A DNA stretch of 43,440 nt from contig NZ_VEEP01000002.1 in NCBI RefSeq assembly GCF_007678455.1, forward strand, positions 1-43,440, given 5' to 3'. This document shows, in pieces, positions 35,475-40,219 of this stretch. The notes under the pieces were generated by a model. The model made no database searches. It was not told where the DNA came from and saw nothing but the letters and a program-made list of their open reading frames with translations. The translations under genes were made by a program, and so were the position numbers. The DNA is from Cytobacillus oceanisediminis 2691. Lineage in GTDB: Bacteria > Bacillota > Bacilli > Bacillales > Cytobacillaceae. Positions within the stretch are counted from its first letter, which is position 1. Every line of letters begins with the position of its first letter.

Positions 35475-35597
35475 TTGGATAAGAAAAAAAGGGATAAGAC
35501 AAAGAGTACATTATCAAGCATGCAGGAAGTTACATACAGCCGAGAATTCAAAAAAGCAGACAGAGCAGGCGGCTATGCAGCTGGAAAGAGATATTAG
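35475..35597 (+). CDS. yfhE: YfhE family small protein
   Basis: A 40-codon gene starting with TTG (35475) after GAAAGGGTGAAT. The product DKKKRDKTKSTLSSMQEVTY continuing SREFKKADRAGGYAAGKRY matches the conserved YfhE family. Very basic and probably spore-associated by analogy with neighbouring small proteins, but function is unknown. A strong terminator follows 30 bases later. Confidence 0.85.
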   Translation: MDKKKRDKTKSTLSSMQEVTYSREFKKADRAGGYAAGKRY

Positions 35598-35626
35598 GCA
35601 TTAAGGCGCTTCTTTTGGAGGAACAT

Positions 35627-35662
35627 AAAAGTACGGAAATAATGCATTTCCGTACTTTTAAC
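35627..35662 (+). terminator. Terminator of yfhF-yfhE
   Basis: AAAAGTACGGAAAT-5-ATTTCCGTACTTTT, a 14-bp perfect stem. Confidence 0.9.
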
Positions 35663-35682
35663 TTTTGAAAGGGGTTTTTCGA

Positions 35683-35868
35683 ATGGGAAGAGCACATGGA
35701 CACAAAACACGTGATCGCAATAAAGCATCCCTTCCACAAGTACCAAAAAACATGAAATCTGATGGCATTGATGTAGAATTCGATCGCGATTTAGCTGACC
35801 ACGATGATCTTGAAGCAATGGCACGTTCAAAAGCTGCAGACCAGCGTGCCAAAAGCAGAAGAAAATAA
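35683..35868 (+). CDS. yfhD: YfhD family small protein
   Basis: The 61-residue basic protein MGRAHGHKTRDRNKASLPQV ... FDRDLADHDDLEAMARSKAA matches the YfhD family of spore formers, usually beside yfhE. Function unknown. AAAGGGG lies 8 bases before the ATG at 35683. It has its own terminator just behind, and follows the yfhE terminator by only 20 bases, leaving little room for a separate promoter; one may overlap the hairpin. Confidence 0.85.
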   Translation: MGRAHGHKTRDRNKASLPQVPKNMKSDGIDVEFDRDLADHDDLEAMARSKAADQRAKSRRK

Positions 35869-35880
35869 CCCTCTCATATA

Positions 35881-35919
35881 GGAAAAAGCAGAATCAAAAT
35901 GATTCTGCTTTTTCCTTTT
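35881..35919 (+). terminator. Terminator of yfhD
   Basis: GGAAAAAGCAGAATC-5-GATTCTGCTTTTTCC followed by TTTT. Confidence 0.9.
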
Positions 35920-36054
35920 AAGGGAAGGGGGAATATCTACGGTTAGCAAATCAGGAACTTGAGTTTGTGAATTACTTCACTAACTTTCGATACTTCTAAT
36001 TTACTCCCAACCGCTTCATTAAACAAGTATTTTCACTAATTGTACAAAAATAAG

Positions 36055-36174
36055 TTACCCACATACATGTGAATATTGTTAATAAATTCTCTAAAAGCTT
36101 TTAATATTAGGGTTTATTTATCTATCGTAATTTAGCGATATTTCTGTGGATAATGTGGATAAAGCTGTGGAGTA
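36055..36174. promoter_or_regulatory. Cluster of DnaA-box motifs
   Basis: Two perfect DnaA boxes in direct contact: TGTGGATAA at 36145-36153 and 36154-36162 (complement TTATCCACA). A one-mismatch box TTACCCACA is at 36055-36063, and two-mismatch copies are at 36068-36076 and 36166-36174. They lie in an AT-rich 440-bp gap between yfhD and the SASP gene. No dnaA or oriC genes are nearby. The rest of the gap shows no gene. Confidence 0.6.
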
Positions 36175-36359
36175 CTTATAAATAATAGTTTTTGTTTGTT
36201 GATAAGTTTGAGGATAATTAAATTGGCTATAATATTTACCCTTTTATTAATGCAATAAAACCTATATCCCGTAATCTGAACGGTTCATTATTTAATAATA
36301 TTCTTCTTCATTACCAATACTAACGTGAGAATGTAATGATCATTATGGAGGGATCACTA

Positions 36360-36611
36360 ATGGCAAGAAGGAATAAGATCCTTGTACCGGAAGCCAGGAA
36401 GGCACTTGATGATCTAAAAGCACAGGTAGCCGGTACAATAAAAGCGGAGGATGCAAAATTTGAAACAGCCAAAGAGGTTGGCGTTCCCCTTAATAAGGGT
36501 TATAACGGTAATCTTTCAACCCGGGAAGCTGGAAAAGTTGGGGGAAAATTGGGTGGAAGCATGGTCCGGGAGCTCGTGAAAATGGCACAGGAAAATTTAC
36601 GGAAACAGTAA
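36360..36611 (+). CDS. Alpha/beta-type small acid-soluble spore protein
   Basis: The 83-residue protein has the SASP core: the GPR-protease site KFETAKEVGVPL, then NGNLSTREAGKVGGKLGGSMVRELVKMAQ, the DNA-binding helix-turn-helix of alpha/beta-type SASP that coats and protects spore DNA. The N-terminal segment (ARKALDDLKAQVAG) is the first helix region. GGAGG lies 8 bases before the ATG at 36360; the frame from 36336 is not used. It would be transcribed by sigma-G. The paralogue (A-D type) cannot be assigned. Confidence 0.9.
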   Translation: MARRNKILVPEARKALDDLKAQVAGTIKAEDAKFETAKEVGVPLNKGYNGNLSTREAGKVGGKLGGSMVRELVKMAQENLRKQ

Positions 36612-36638
36612 AGACTTCAAACATTTGTAAAAAAACAG

Positions 36639-36667
36639 TTGACATCTGCTGGAAAATGAAATATAAT
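36639..36667 (+). promoter_or_regulatory. Consensus sigma-A promoter of the candidate small RNA
   Basis: TTGACA (36639-36644), 17-base spacer, TATAAT (36662-36667): a perfect consensus promoter. It predicts a start near 36674. It drives no protein-coding gene on this strand before the terminator at 36915. Confidence 0.85.
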
Positions 36668-36673
36668 GAATAA

Positions 36674-36941
36674 GCTTCGCCAAAAGGAAGTAACTTGAGT
36701 CACAACCAATACTATGTAAACAATTAATGGCGTTCTGCTTTTATTTTTAGGTAACAACTTATTCACACTGGATCGGCTTCGGAGCCGTAAGGATGCAAGA
36801 GAGGTAGGGCTTGCGTCGTTTAGGTTAAAAATGGTCAAGTGGAATTTTGTACCGCGGCAAAGTTTATAAATGGATGATTTATTATACATCTTGTGGAGTA
36901 GCAAGTTACTTGAAAGCGAACCGATGACGGTTCGCTTTTTC
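36674..36941 (+). ncRNA. Candidate structured small RNA, ~265 nt, unidentified
   Basis: Bounded by a consensus promoter and an intrinsic terminator (AGCGAACCG-ATGA-CGGTTCGCT plus T5). The ends pair: AAGTAACTTG (36689-36698) with CAAGTTACTT (36902-36911), then CACAA with TTGTG and ATGTA with TACAT further in. Internal hairpins: CGGCT-TCGG-AGCCG (36774-36787) and GATGCAAG-10-CTTGCGTC (36792-36817) with purine loop AGAGGTAGGG. No open frame with a ribosome site occurs on this strand. It is not 16S-, tmRNA-, RNase P- or SRP-like as far as I recall them; a 6S-like closed rod is one possibility. Family unknown. Confidence 0.7.
36915..36941 (+). terminator. Terminator of the candidate small RNA
   Basis: AGCGAACCG-ATGA-CGGTTCGCT followed by TTTTTC. 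It may also serve the kinase gene from the other side, though the T tract there is poor. Confidence 0.88.
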
Positions 36942-36968
36942 TATTTGTCCGATTTTCTTTGAAAATCA

Positions 36969-38264
36969 TTACATGGCTTCATTCCCCTGAAGTGGATCTG
37001 CTCCTGCTGCATCCTTATTATACGTTGGCAGGATGATCGTGACTTCCGTTCCTACTCCTAAATCACTCTTGAATGCAATAGACCCGCCCATCGCTTCAAT
37101 GATTTTCGTTGAAACGGATGTACCAAGTCCGGTACCTTTATCTTTAGTTGTGTAAAAAAGTGTCCCAAGACGTGCCAGCTGCTCCTGATCCATCCCTTTA
37201 CCTGTGTCTGAGACGATGACATAAGATTCTGGCCCTGCCGATGCCTGGCTGACAAAGACCTCCCCGCCTTCTTCCGTGGCTTCGATTGCATTCTTTATTA
37301 TATTCACTAAAGCTTGCTTCAGCTGGTTCCGGTCGGCTTTTGCAAACACACCCCACTCAAGCTTTACGTTCACCTGTACCCCTTCTTTTGCGGCAAAGGC
37401 TTCCAGGAGGATGGTTACTTCTGTAATTATTTCAGCCAGTTCTGCGTCCTCCAGCTTTTCAAATTGCGGCTTTGCGAAATTCAGGTAATCATTAATGATT
37501 GACTCAGCCCTTCCAAGCTCAGTCAGAACCAGACTCAAATAGTAAAAGTTATCTCCCTTTTCCTGCTTGTGCATCATTTGCAGAAAACCTTTCACTACTG
37601 TCAGTGGATTCCTGATTTCATGTGCAATGGACGCTGCAAGTTCCCCCAATGTATTAAGCTTTTCAGCCCTGAGGATTTCTTTCTTCATCAAATCCTTTTC
37701 TATCAATGCCTCATTGAGGAAAGCTGCTACCCATACAGAGAAAATCTGTATCACACCAAAAATCGTTATGTTCATCAAGACCTTATTTGAATCTTCTGAT
37801 GCTGCTGCATTACTGAGAAAAGTATTAGTGATTAAAATGATAAGCATAGAAAGTGATGGCCAGAAACCAACAATAACCGCTGTCCTGACCCTCTTCTTAG
37901 CATCAAAGGTCCAAAAACTCTTCATGAACAAGAATGGAAACAATGCTGCCAAAAAACCGCTCGCATAACCGAGAAGGAGATCCCCTCCCATGAATGTCCT
38001 TGTTGCAAGATAAGTAAATAAGACCATCCCCCCTGCAATCGGCCCCCCATACAAAAAGGCTACTACCAAAGGGACATACCGAAGATCCCAGTATAATCCG
38101 CCCAGTTCATATGAAAACGCAAGCGAGAGAAACAGAGCCAGGCTTTGCAGGATTCCGCATAAATAAGGTGATTTCCCAACACTTTTGTTATCAAAAAGAA
38201 CACCATGAATAAAGATAGGCAGCAAAATGATCAAAACATTCAACAGGAGTTTCTCGACGAGCAT
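36969..38264 (-). CDS. KinB-like sporulation sensor histidine kinase
   Basis: The 431-residue membrane kinase has six hydrophobic segments in residues 1-185 with LRYVPLVVAFLYGGPIAGG (5TM-5TMR_LYT type). The phosphoacceptor His215 lies in ELAASIAHEIRNPLTVVKGF, then the N box NIIKNAIEA, G1 DTGKGM and G2 GTGLGTSVS. Architecture and length fit B. subtilis KinB (about 428 residues), which feeds the Spo0A phosphorelay, but kapB is absent and other YkoH/KinD-like orphans are possible. No response regulator is adjacent. GGAG precedes the ATG by 8 bases. Confidence 0.8.
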   Translation of the reverse strand: MLVEKLLLNVLIILLPIFIHGVLFDNKSVGKSPYLCGILQSLALFLSLAFSYELGGLYWDLRYVPLVVAFLYGGPIAGGMVLFTYLATRTFMGGDLLLGYASGFLAALFPFLFMKSFWTFDAKKRVRTAVIVGFWPSLSMLIILITNTFLSNAAASEDSNKVLMNITIFGVIQIFSVWVAAFLNEALIEKDLMKKEILRAEKLNTLGELAASIAHEIRNPLTVVKGFLQMMHKQEKGDNFYYLSLVLTELGRAESIINDYLNFAKPQFEKLEDAELAEIITEVTILLEAFAAKEGVQVNVKLEWGVFAKADRNQLKQALVNIIKNAIEATEEGGEVFVSQASAGPESYVIVSDTGKGMDQEQLARLGTLFYTTKDKGTGLGTSVSTKIIEAMGGSIAFKSDLGVGTEVTIILPTYNKDAAGADPLQGNEAM

Positions 38265-38392
38265 TTTATCTTCTCCAATCGAAGAGCGTTAAATAGTATA
38301 GCCCAAACGCAATATCCACTTTTAGAAATACGACAAAGTTTTCATGATTCCTCTATTCCCCGGGAAATTTGTCATATATTAGCATTGTGAAC

Positions 38393-38416
38393 ATAAAAAA
38401 GGAGCCCTGAGGCTCC
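38393..38416 (-). terminator. Terminator of the ABC exporter operon
   Basis: On the minus strand GGAGCC-TCAG-GGCTCC followed by TTTTTT, just after the yfiC-like gene. Confidence 0.88.
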
Positions 38417-38419
38417 CTG

Positions 38420-40219
38420 CTATGAATTCATTAACATTTTCTTTTCAAGCTGGCTTGTATAAAGTTCATGGTAAAAACCTTTTTGTGCCAGCAATTCGTC
38501 ATGACTGCCCTTTTCAATGATTTGTCCATTCTCTATAACGATAATCTGATCGGCATTTTTAATCGTATTCAAGCGGTGGGCAATGGTGAAGCTTGTTCTT
38601 CCCTTCAGCAGATGCTGGAGGGCTTCCTGTATTTTCAACTCAGTGATTGTATCAATGCTGCTTGTCGCTTCATCCAGTATCAAAATCGCAGGATCAGCAA
38701 GGATGGCTCTGGCAATCGATAGTAATTGCTTTTGCCCCTGGCTTATCCCGGCATCATCCTGGCTAAGCTCAGTATCATACCCTTCCGGCAATCGTTGAAT
38801 GAAGGAATGGGCATTTGCAGCCCTGGCAGCCTTCTCTACCTCCTCATCGGAAGCATCCAGTCTTCCATATCGAATATTCTCCCTGATGCTTCCCTGGAAC
38901 AAAAATGAATCCTGGAGGACGAATCCCATTTGTTTCCTCAGGCTGTCACGGGTGATTTTCTTACTGTCGTGCCCATCAATCATAATCATCCCCTGATCTG
39001 GTTCATAAAAACGCGAAATCAAGTTGATGATTGTCGACTTGCCAGCACCCGTAGGGCCAACCAATGCAATCGTTTGGCCAGGTTCTGCGTTAAAATTCAA
39101 ATCAGAAACGGTATCTCCCCCCTTTTCATAGGAAAAAGATACATCCTTGAACTCGACCTTTCCGGTGATGCCAAGGAGAGGTGCAGCTCCTTTTTCGTCT
39201 ACAGCCTCTTCCTCCGTATCAATGATGTCAAAGACACGATCGGCTCCTGCAACAGCTGACAGCAAGGTATTGAACTGATTCGACAGATCATTCAACGGTC
39301 TTGTGAATTGTCGGGAGTATTCGGTAAAGATAACAATTGTCCCAATCGTTACATATCCTTTTAAGGCGAAGAAACCGCCCACTCCTGCCACGATGGTAAA
39401 GCTAAGGTTATTGAGCATATTCATCAATTTCGGGATAAAGCCTGTAAATGTCTGTGCCCAGTAACCTGATTCCTTCAGTTGCTGATTTTTTATGCGGAAC
39501 TCTTCAATGACTTTTGGTTCCTGGGAAAAGGATTTGATGATTTTTTGTCCGGAAATTGTTTCCTCAATATATCCATTCATCTCTCCAAGCCTGCGCTGCT
39601 GTTCCTTATATAGTTTGCCGGTACGGCTCGTAATCCACTTCATCCCCATGAACATCAATGGAACGATAATCATCGTCACCAGGGTAAGCAAAGGACTCAG
39701 CCAAATCATGACCGCCAATGTTCCCGCAAGGGTAAGCACGCTCGAAAAAATCTGGATGACAGAGGAATTCAGGGTCGCGCTGACATTTTCGATATCATTG
39801 GTGACCCGGCTCATCAGCTCTCCATGCTGGCGTTTGTTAAAGAAATCAATCGAGAGCTTGTGAAAATGGCTGAAGAGCTGCCTCCTCATTATATAGACAG
39901 TCTTCTGAGCGATGCCGATCATCCAGTAGCTTTGGAACCACAATGTTAAGGAATGCATCACGTAAACTGCACCTAGGCCGATTAATAGCCAAGTGAAACC
40001 ATCAGCTGATTCTGTCGCAAAATACTGATCGATGCCCCATCCGATCAAGAATGGGCCCAGCAATCCAAGCGCTGAACTCGCCACCACCATTAACAGGACC
40101 AGGATCAGCAGGCTCCGTTGGCCTGCAAGATAGGACCAGATCCTCCTGATTGTCGGTCCAATCCCCTTAACCGTACTTTTATTGCTGCCTGCCTTGTTTT
40201 CTCTTTGCCTTTTTAGCAT
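38420..40219 (-). CDS. yfiC: Heterodimeric ABC exporter subunit, YfiC-like
   Basis: The 599-residue half-transporter has a six-helix membrane domain (about 25-330) then an ATPase with Walker A GPTGAGKST, Walker [14 protein letters not shown] and H-loop AHRLNT. Its signature is degenerate: ISQGQ instead of LSGGQ. Paired with the partner's intact LSGGQ, this subunit's own Walker sites make the one hydrolytic site. The ATG overlaps the last 7 bases of the partner gene (ATGCTAA), with GGGGAGGTGA upstream. Probably a multidrug or lipid exporter; symbol by resemblance to the B. subtilis yfiB-yfiC pair. Confidence 0.85.
   Translation of the reverse strand: MLKRQRENKAGSNKSTVKGIGPTIRRIWSYLAGQRSLLILVLLMVVASSALGLLGPFLIGWGIDQYFATESADGFTWLLIGLGAVYVMHSLTLWFQSYWMIGIAQKTVYIMRRQLFSHFHKLSIDFFNKRQHGELMSRVTNDIENVSATLNSSVIQIFSSVLTLAGTLAVMIWLSPLLTLVTMIIVPLMFMGMKWITSRTGKLYKEQQRRLGEMNGYIEETISGQKIIKSFSQEPKVIEEFRIKNQQLKESGYWAQTFTGFIPKLMNMLNNLSFTIVAGVGGFFALKGYVTIGTIVIFTEYSRQFTRPLNDLSNQFNTLLSAVAGADRVFDIIDTEEEAVDEKGAAPLLGITGKVEFKDVSFSYEKGGDTVSDLNFNAEPGQTIALVGPTGAGKSTIINLISRFYEPDQGMIMIDGHDSKKITRDSLRKQMGFVLQDSFLFQGSIRENIRYGRLDASDEEVEKAARAANAHSFIQRLPEGYDTELSQDDAGISQGQKQLLSIARAILADPAILILDEATSSIDTITELKIQEALQHLLKGRTSFTIAHRLNTIKNADQIIVIENGQIIEKGSHDELLAQKGFYHELYTSQLEKKMLMNS

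Follow-up and report, generated by a model that had tools for sequence, protein, structure and literature searches.

The window, a stretch of 43,440 nucleotides from Cytobacillus oceanisediminis 2691 (contig NZ_VEEP01000002.1), carries a SigA-type promoter followed by an intrinsic terminator (Table 1), with an alpha/beta SASP gene upstream on the plus strand and a histidine kinase gene (36969-38264) downstream on the minus strand. Pfam confirmed both neighbors named in the initial annotation, which had also described a perfect promoter and a transcript of about 265 nt with a strong terminator; the promoter is indeed perfect, and the transcript stands as a prediction of slightly greater length. 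In a promoter scan of 35500-38500 the 12/12 score was unique to this site, and promoter-like sites of any quality numbered 6 where 7.0 were expected; because that number is not above expectation, the weight of the promoter lies in its perfect match and its conservation. Same-genus copies have similar terminator hairpins at equal distance. The fold of the window RNA (−76.1 kcal/mol, z = −2.61, with equal stability reached by 3 of 200 shuffles) is, taken alone, modestly better than chance. The ORF list contains no plus-strand frame of at least 40 amino acids within 36674-36941, and a coding function of the plus-strand RNA was rejected for that reason. Frames of 95 and 44 amino acids cross the element on the minus strand; the longer, with a TTG start (36617-36904), spans most of the RNA gene and is probably due to chance. 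Because the histidine kinase gene is convergent, the adjacent downstream gene is not a cis target for the window RNA. The promoter, the promoters of related copies, covariation, and the covariance model match described below support the proposal that 36639-36941 (plus strand) is an independent, SigA-driven gene for a noncoding structured RNA with a predicted transcript, as the initial annotation held.

Table 1. Features of the RNA gene and its surroundings in the window
Feature	Position	Strand	Basis or remark
SigA-type promoter, TTGACA (36639-36644), 17-nt spacer, TATAAT (36662-36667)	36639-36667	+	12/12 match
Predicted RNA transcript, about 267 nt	36674-36941	+	Promoter plus terminator; start at ~36674 predicted
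Outer helix P1, 5' strand AAGUAACUUG	36688-36697	+	Complementary to 36902-36911, 10 bp
Helix PX, 5' strand GUUCUGC, UGGC just before	36732-36738	+	Pairs with 36839-36845
Rfam RF01410 (BsrC) match	36743-36829	−	74.2 bits against gathering score of 38; antisense to the proposed RNA
Conserved three-way-junction core (predicted)	36754-36833	+	Covariance model R1, 91.5 bits, E = 2.3e-34
Core closing helix, 36757-36761 / 36821-36825	36757-36825	+	Double changes in 5/5 family pairs; 84.6% of cells paired
Hairpin P2, CGGC-UUCGGA-GCCG (36774-36777 / 36784-36787)	36774-36787	+	Double changes in 5/5 family pairs; 95.8% of cells paired
Hairpin P3 (36792-36799 / 36810-36817)	36792-36817	+	Double changes in 6/8 pairs; 96.7% of cells paired
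P3 loop, 10 nt, AGAGGUAGGG	36800-36809	+	Strong conservation
Helix PX, 3' strand GUGGAAU	36839-36845	+	Pairs with 36732-36738
Type A motif ACCGCGGC	36851-36858	+	In type A copies with small variation; also the classing criterion
Outer helix P1, 3' strand CAAGUUACUU	36902-36911	+	Complementary to 36688-36697
Intrinsic terminator, 12 pairs, 4-nt loop, T-rich tail	36912-36939	+	Terminator scan

The sole gathering-level Rfam match across the whole window was to RF01410 (BsrC); over 36580-37000, five further matches at E ≤ 5 were all far under gathering (lowest E, 0.022). By score the element belongs to BsrC, though on the minus strand. By the strand of the model it does not, as promoters, pairing statistics, and a published transcript point the opposite way, nor does it by length, the model covering about 87 nt where about 267 nt are predicted here and 322 nt are published for Paenibacillus riograndensis. 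The element overlaps a known family and is hence not categorically new. The family had been called unknown in the initial annotation, and an Rfam hit was expected to remove its novelty; the hit exists but removes it only in part, being to a short model that, judging by the present evidence, represents the wrong strand. For 6S, T-box, tmRNA, RNase P, raiA, and OLE, there was no gathering-level match in the whole window and none at E ≤ 5 over 36580-37000, which agrees with the earlier failure to recognize tmRNA, RNase P, or T-box consensus sequences and leaves the suggested 6S, raiA, and OLE candidates without a match. A T-box would also call for an aminoacyl-tRNA or amino-acid gene downstream in cis, and the adjacent gene here is a convergent histidine kinase gene. 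The fragment GTACCGCGG, which had been likened to T-boxes, is present at 36849-36857 and contains ACCGCGG(C), a motif conserved in one subfamily, but no T-box match accompanies it.

RF01410 was matched in 130 of 151 genomes of relatives (the window's own counted), in 180 of 348 Bacilli genomes drawn as a sample from the class, and in all 44 genomes of one genus (that of G133). Covariance model R1, built from 56 sequences with the window's genus excluded, had matches in two genera of one family (f50), in 74 of 75 genomes of one and 98 of 100 of the other, and the exact core from one of these genera returned 20 records, all Paenibacillus. Phages gave no match to the element, and plasmids gave three short ones, without annotation. 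Lack of conservation in relatives, named at the outset as grounds against the gene, is thus refuted by a conserved family.

Covariation was assessed in 57 of 145 distinct cores, less than 90% alike and picked by an identity limit (alignment A1). Pairing held in 93.1% of 1026 helix cells, as compared with 79.2% in shuffles, and both sides had changed in 16 of 18 core pairs. Double-change cells numbered 168, whereas the shuffles, which ignore relatedness, gave 46.4. The covariation score was 0.519, as compared with 0.250 in these shuffles and at most 0.181 with slid partners, a control that is itself slightly favorable since the helix register was picked by eye on the same sequences. Across the family, the junction, the P3 loop, and part of the P2 loop are conserved, and the loops are purine-rich; the P2 loop reads NNNGGA in most copies and ACAAGGA in many CarD-linked ones. 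In the window, the first family pair of P2 is a U-U mismatch. The two internal hairpins of the initial annotation are present and backed by the covariation analysis on homologues that it had called for, and the predicted core is a three-way junction whose helices covary strongly across the 57 diverse sequences.

Applied to the window, R1 gave one match at E ≤ 1, on the plus strand, placing the window RNA in the family. Among the core cells, G-U pairs outnumbered A-C mismatches by 129 to 10 (89 to 8 without the one mostly G-U pair), a count somewhat biased because the pairs were selected on the plus strand. Because RNA helices tolerate G-U and not A-C, the fold belongs to the plus strand. We consider the proposed identity, strand, and fold of the window RNA to be very probably correct. 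From the promoters, this ratio, and the published transcript, we judge that the strand of RF01410 is wrong and that, on this evidence, Rfam BsrC represents this element by a short model built on the complementary strand.

A total of 163 loci were fetched and 158 kept, 41 as type A (the window included) and 117 as type B. Four were dropped because the core was unusable by motif search despite an RF01410 match there (L059, L085, L154, and L158), and L115 because it repeats L057; L014 was assigned to type B by hand, and L100 and L123, both inside the 117, are one B. subtilis place. The split was made on the motif NCCGCGGC 3' of the core, and hence the statement that type A has the motif is true by definition. 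The window has this motif, the PX helix, and its own promoter and terminator, as expected of type A. CCGCGG within the motif is a palindrome, and TACCGCGGC of the motif may be a complement of the 16S rRNA 530 loop, which could be chance.

The comparison of promoters and terminators across copies used an earlier version of the list, with 28 type A loci and 61 others, among which L053, L060, L074, and L080 were later classed as type A. A same-strand promoter of at least 10/12 lay upstream in 24 of the 28 type A copies (window included), 11 of them perfect, with the −10 element ending 102-181 nt before the reference point, and in 7 of the 61 other loci. Opposite-strand promoters of that quality were found in 0 of 28 and 4 of 61, respectively. 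The genes neighboring type A copies differ between lineages.

Helix PX (AUUCUGC / GUGGAAU type) encloses the core in type A, and its strands pair better with their own partners than with partners swapped between copies; among 5000 permutations over 30 type A representatives, 13 reached the observed pairing. The type A alignment left out L055, L068, L074, L078, L080, and L084, in which the promoter was unclear or the 5' part odd. The complementary ends of 10 bp described earlier are also present as P1, for which 1 of 5000 permutations reached the observed pairing with 34 copies, and 458 of 5000 with 23 lineage representatives. As the latter result is not significant, P1 was rejected as a family-wide feature, and the putative helix is not proven beyond close kin. 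A CUUG at 36890-36893 may pair with CAAG of the P1 3' strand, forming a local hairpin (36890-36905) that would rival P1; several type A loci have similar CUUG/CAAG copies ahead of the terminator.

Published data from other species bear on strand and length. The passages on BsrC in a study of P. riograndensis SBR5, whose transcript set is based on 5'-end-enriched reads, list a transcript of 322 nt from 688067 to 687745 on the minus strand (PMC5670726, Table 4); in those passages the Rfam name is adopted and the strand goes uncommented. In G621, which is a different assembly from SBR5, R1 places the core on the minus strand at 687842-687921, and the promoter predicts a start at ~688066, about 1 base from the published one. 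The G621 copy is type B (it is without ACCGCGGC), and the scan found no terminator on the strand of the core.

In B. subtilis, R1 finds the core twice, at 474424-474503 (plus strand) and at 559890-559969. The RF01410 matches in that genome (G511; 474413-474499 and 559894-559980) fit the places given in the sections concerned of two papers, ydaG-ydaH (PMC3574147) and cspC-ydeB (PMC8208703). At the first place, a TTGTGT-17-TATTAT promoter preceded by TG was read by eye (L122, 1232-1260) and falls under the threshold of the promoter scan; it predicts a start at ~474266. The Hfq-bound bsrC peak reported there spans 474265-474410, starting within a base of this prediction and ending ahead of the core; according to the same section, the direction of Hfq peaks was inferred from other data, and bsrC tops the table of Hfq-enriched sRNAs at 53.6-fold (PMC3574147). 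The part of a tiling array study dealing with bsrC describes it not as its own transcript but as a segment joined with the upstream gene (PMC2784878). A 140-amino-acid ORF upstream of the core, which we take to be ydaG, lies on the same strand as the core. A dRNA-seq study of B. amyloliquefaciens FZB42 states, in its passage on BsrC, that no homologue was found (PMC4634765). These two surveys, neither of which saw bsrC as a separate transcript, weigh against the reading preferred here. The second B. subtilis core (L123) lies 3' of a CarD-like gene and faces a cold-shock protein (CSP) gene; the BSGatlas section on this place gives it, by Rfam, as an additional toxin-antitoxin sRNA bsrC, and also names the Rfam cspA thermoregulator (PMC8208703). 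Nothing in the present analysis speaks for the toxin-antitoxin label.

The surroundings of type B are distinctive. Of the 117 type B loci, 56 had a CSP gene in their flanks, as compared with 1 of 41 type A loci, within the fetched range of about 1.5 kb per side (shorter at a few loci) and with a profile trained on 10 loci that count among the 56. With 5 CSP genes in the 4.9 Mb of the window's genome, about 0.3% would be expected to lie this close by chance. Many type B loci are near relatives and so do not count independently; a single genus Bacillus arrangement, in which an opposing csp lies 3' of the core, accounts for 15 of the 56 rows (14 places). The core may precede the CSP gene, follow it, or lie opposite it. 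At nine loci the CSP gene shares the strand of the core and starts 132-287 nt downstream of it (L054, L062, L073, L128, L132, L133, L147, L149, and L162), and at 13 it lies immediately upstream of the core, again with both on one strand (L026, L038, L040, L042, L044, L049, L066, L075, L091, L130, L134, L135, and L146). DEAD-box genes lie closely 3' of the core at L021, L026, L040, L042, L072, and L130, and CarD genes 5' of it at many loci; these two labels are simple motif matches, with one representative of each confirmed by Pfam. The window copy has no adjoining CSP gene, and these counts suggest a cold-shock link as a correlation of the type B neighborhood. Between core and csp, six loci (L054, L062, L132, L133, L147, and L149) have a long A+T-rich hairpin of the type ATTCACAT-TTATAAAG ... 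CTTTATAATATGTGAAT with a T-rich stretch behind it; the 3' arm of this hairpin might pair with ATTCACA in the junction of the core as well.

The explanation that we prefer as a whole, and consider on balance probable, is that the window encodes a stand-alone type A RNA of a misoriented BsrC family, acting in trans with a shared partner. Flanked by PX and the ACCGCGGC motif, the core would present its conserved loops (mostly NNNGGA, and AGAGGUAGGG) and the junction UUCACACUGG to one conserved partner, which may be a protein, an RNA, or a small molecule. The same partner would read the core near CSP, DEAD-box helicase, and CarD genes, and the stand-alone copy would work in trans as a sensor or decoy of that partner, tied to the cold or translation-stress response. 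One common partner is probable because the loops and junction are conserved and the core recurs in varied surroundings, and the recurrent cold-shock neighborhood suggests a partner in the cold or translation-stress response. A cold-shock-linked trans role of the type A RNA is put forward tentatively, from gene neighborhoods. With similar reserve, a single three-way junction, a widespread Bacilli RNA class hidden by a wrong-strand fragment entry, might serve two settings, forming part of cold-shock, DEAD-box, and CarD transcripts in one and a stand-alone RNA under its own promoter in the other, and answering to a common signal or protein.

A base-pairing sRNA or a ligand aptamer is nearly as likely as the shared-partner reading. 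As a base-pairing sRNA, the window RNA would use its P3 loop, which is strongly conserved and presented on a stable hairpin, to pair with C-rich stretches of mRNA, perhaps with the help of Hfq, in keeping with the Hfq enrichment of bsrC in B. subtilis. However, the junction and part of the P2 loop are conserved as well, beyond what a seed needs, and the Hfq peak stops short of the core, so that we regard this account, taken singly, as doubtful. We consider a riboswitch-like aptamer, acting in cis before CSP or DEAD-box genes and, in type A, as a free-standing sensor or sponge, to be unlikely. A three-way junction with a highly conserved junction and loops across many families would suit it, as would the nine type B loci with a CSP start closely downstream, six of which have the A+T-rich hairpin and T-rich sequence ahead of CSP; yet the window has no adjacent cis gene, type B neighbors are varied, and separate CSP promoters may lie between core and gene.

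The terminal GGA of most P2 loops raises the idea of an RNA that titrates CsrA through GGA in the P2 loop and junction, and ACAAGGA, found in many CarD-linked copies, resembles a CsrA site. The window's own genome has CsrA. The GGA is variable, though, being AGA in L141 and L142 and GGG in L136 and L140; G154 and G193 have the RNA without CsrA, CsrA-positive G165 has no RNA match, and the core-bearing G238, G248, and G403 are not among the CsrA matches listed. A CsrA sponge is thus very unlikely and was rejected on the variable GGA and the genomes without CsrA. That Rfam is right, with the functional RNA an 87-nt minus-strand BsrC and the plus-strand promoter driving something unrelated, is more improbable still: the score of the Rfam model and a C-rich minus-strand segment, CCCUACCUCUCU, able in principle to bind ribosome-binding sites speak for it, but they are opposed by the lack of any minus-strand promoter of at least 10/12 in the 28 type A copies, by the excess of G-U over A-C, by the P. 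riograndensis transcript on the strand of R1 (PMC5670726), and by the joining of the B. subtilis segment with an upstream gene (PMC2784878), presumed to be ydaG, that shares the strand of the core. Least probable of all is a conditional terminator or 6S-like RNA, for which the complementary ends and the 5' TTCGC that can meet GCGAA of the terminator (both segments present as first described, and unchanged in 7 of 9 same-genus copies, window included) are outweighed by the lack of a 6S match at E ≤ 5, the convergent downstream gene, and a pair that does not form in L082 and forms in L088 only through a G-U, grounds on which conditional termination, raised in the initial annotation, was rejected.

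By Rfam match and by R1, the window element is the same DNA element as B. subtilis bsrC (RF01410, ydaG-ydaH), but the window RNA lies on the opposite strand, is predicted at about 267 rather than 87 nt, has other neighbors, adds PX and ACCGCGGC as type A, and folds into a predicted three-way junction where the Rfam structure line has a single hairpin. The P. riograndensis SBR5 BsrC is likewise a separate transcript on the strand proposed here (PMC5670726); as read in G621, it differs from the window in being type B and in having no terminator on its strand by the scan. In the open-licence literature covered, which leaves aside the original papers naming bsrC (reportedly including Saito 2009), we found no study of BsrC function or structure and no report of its misorientation, greater length, three-way junction, two architectures, or cold-shock link. 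What appears to be new is thus the misorientation, length, three-way junction, A/B architectures, and cold-shock neighborhood of the known BsrC family. With RF01410 apparently modeled on the wrong strand, probes, knock-downs, and target predictions based on it would aim at the complement. The core is conserved about as a riboswitch is, in 180 of the 348 Bacilli genomes sampled; a reoriented model makes the family testable, B. subtilis itself holding two copies, and the recurring cold-shock, DEAD-box, and CarD neighbors supply a first functional hypothesis.

raiA and OLE exemplify long, conserved, structured noncoding RNAs whose function stayed obscure for years; the window RNA has no Rfam match to either and differs from them in size and fold. 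Like cspA-type leaders, some copies of type B immediately precede CSP genes, whereas the window has neither such an Rfam match nor an adjacent CSP gene. At L075, four successive CSP genes lie upstream of the type B core. At eight loci (L029, L030, L033, L034, L043, L047, L048, and L061) the type B core precedes a folD-like gene; seven of these are preceded by glpD (taken by eye), and six have a CSP match after folD.
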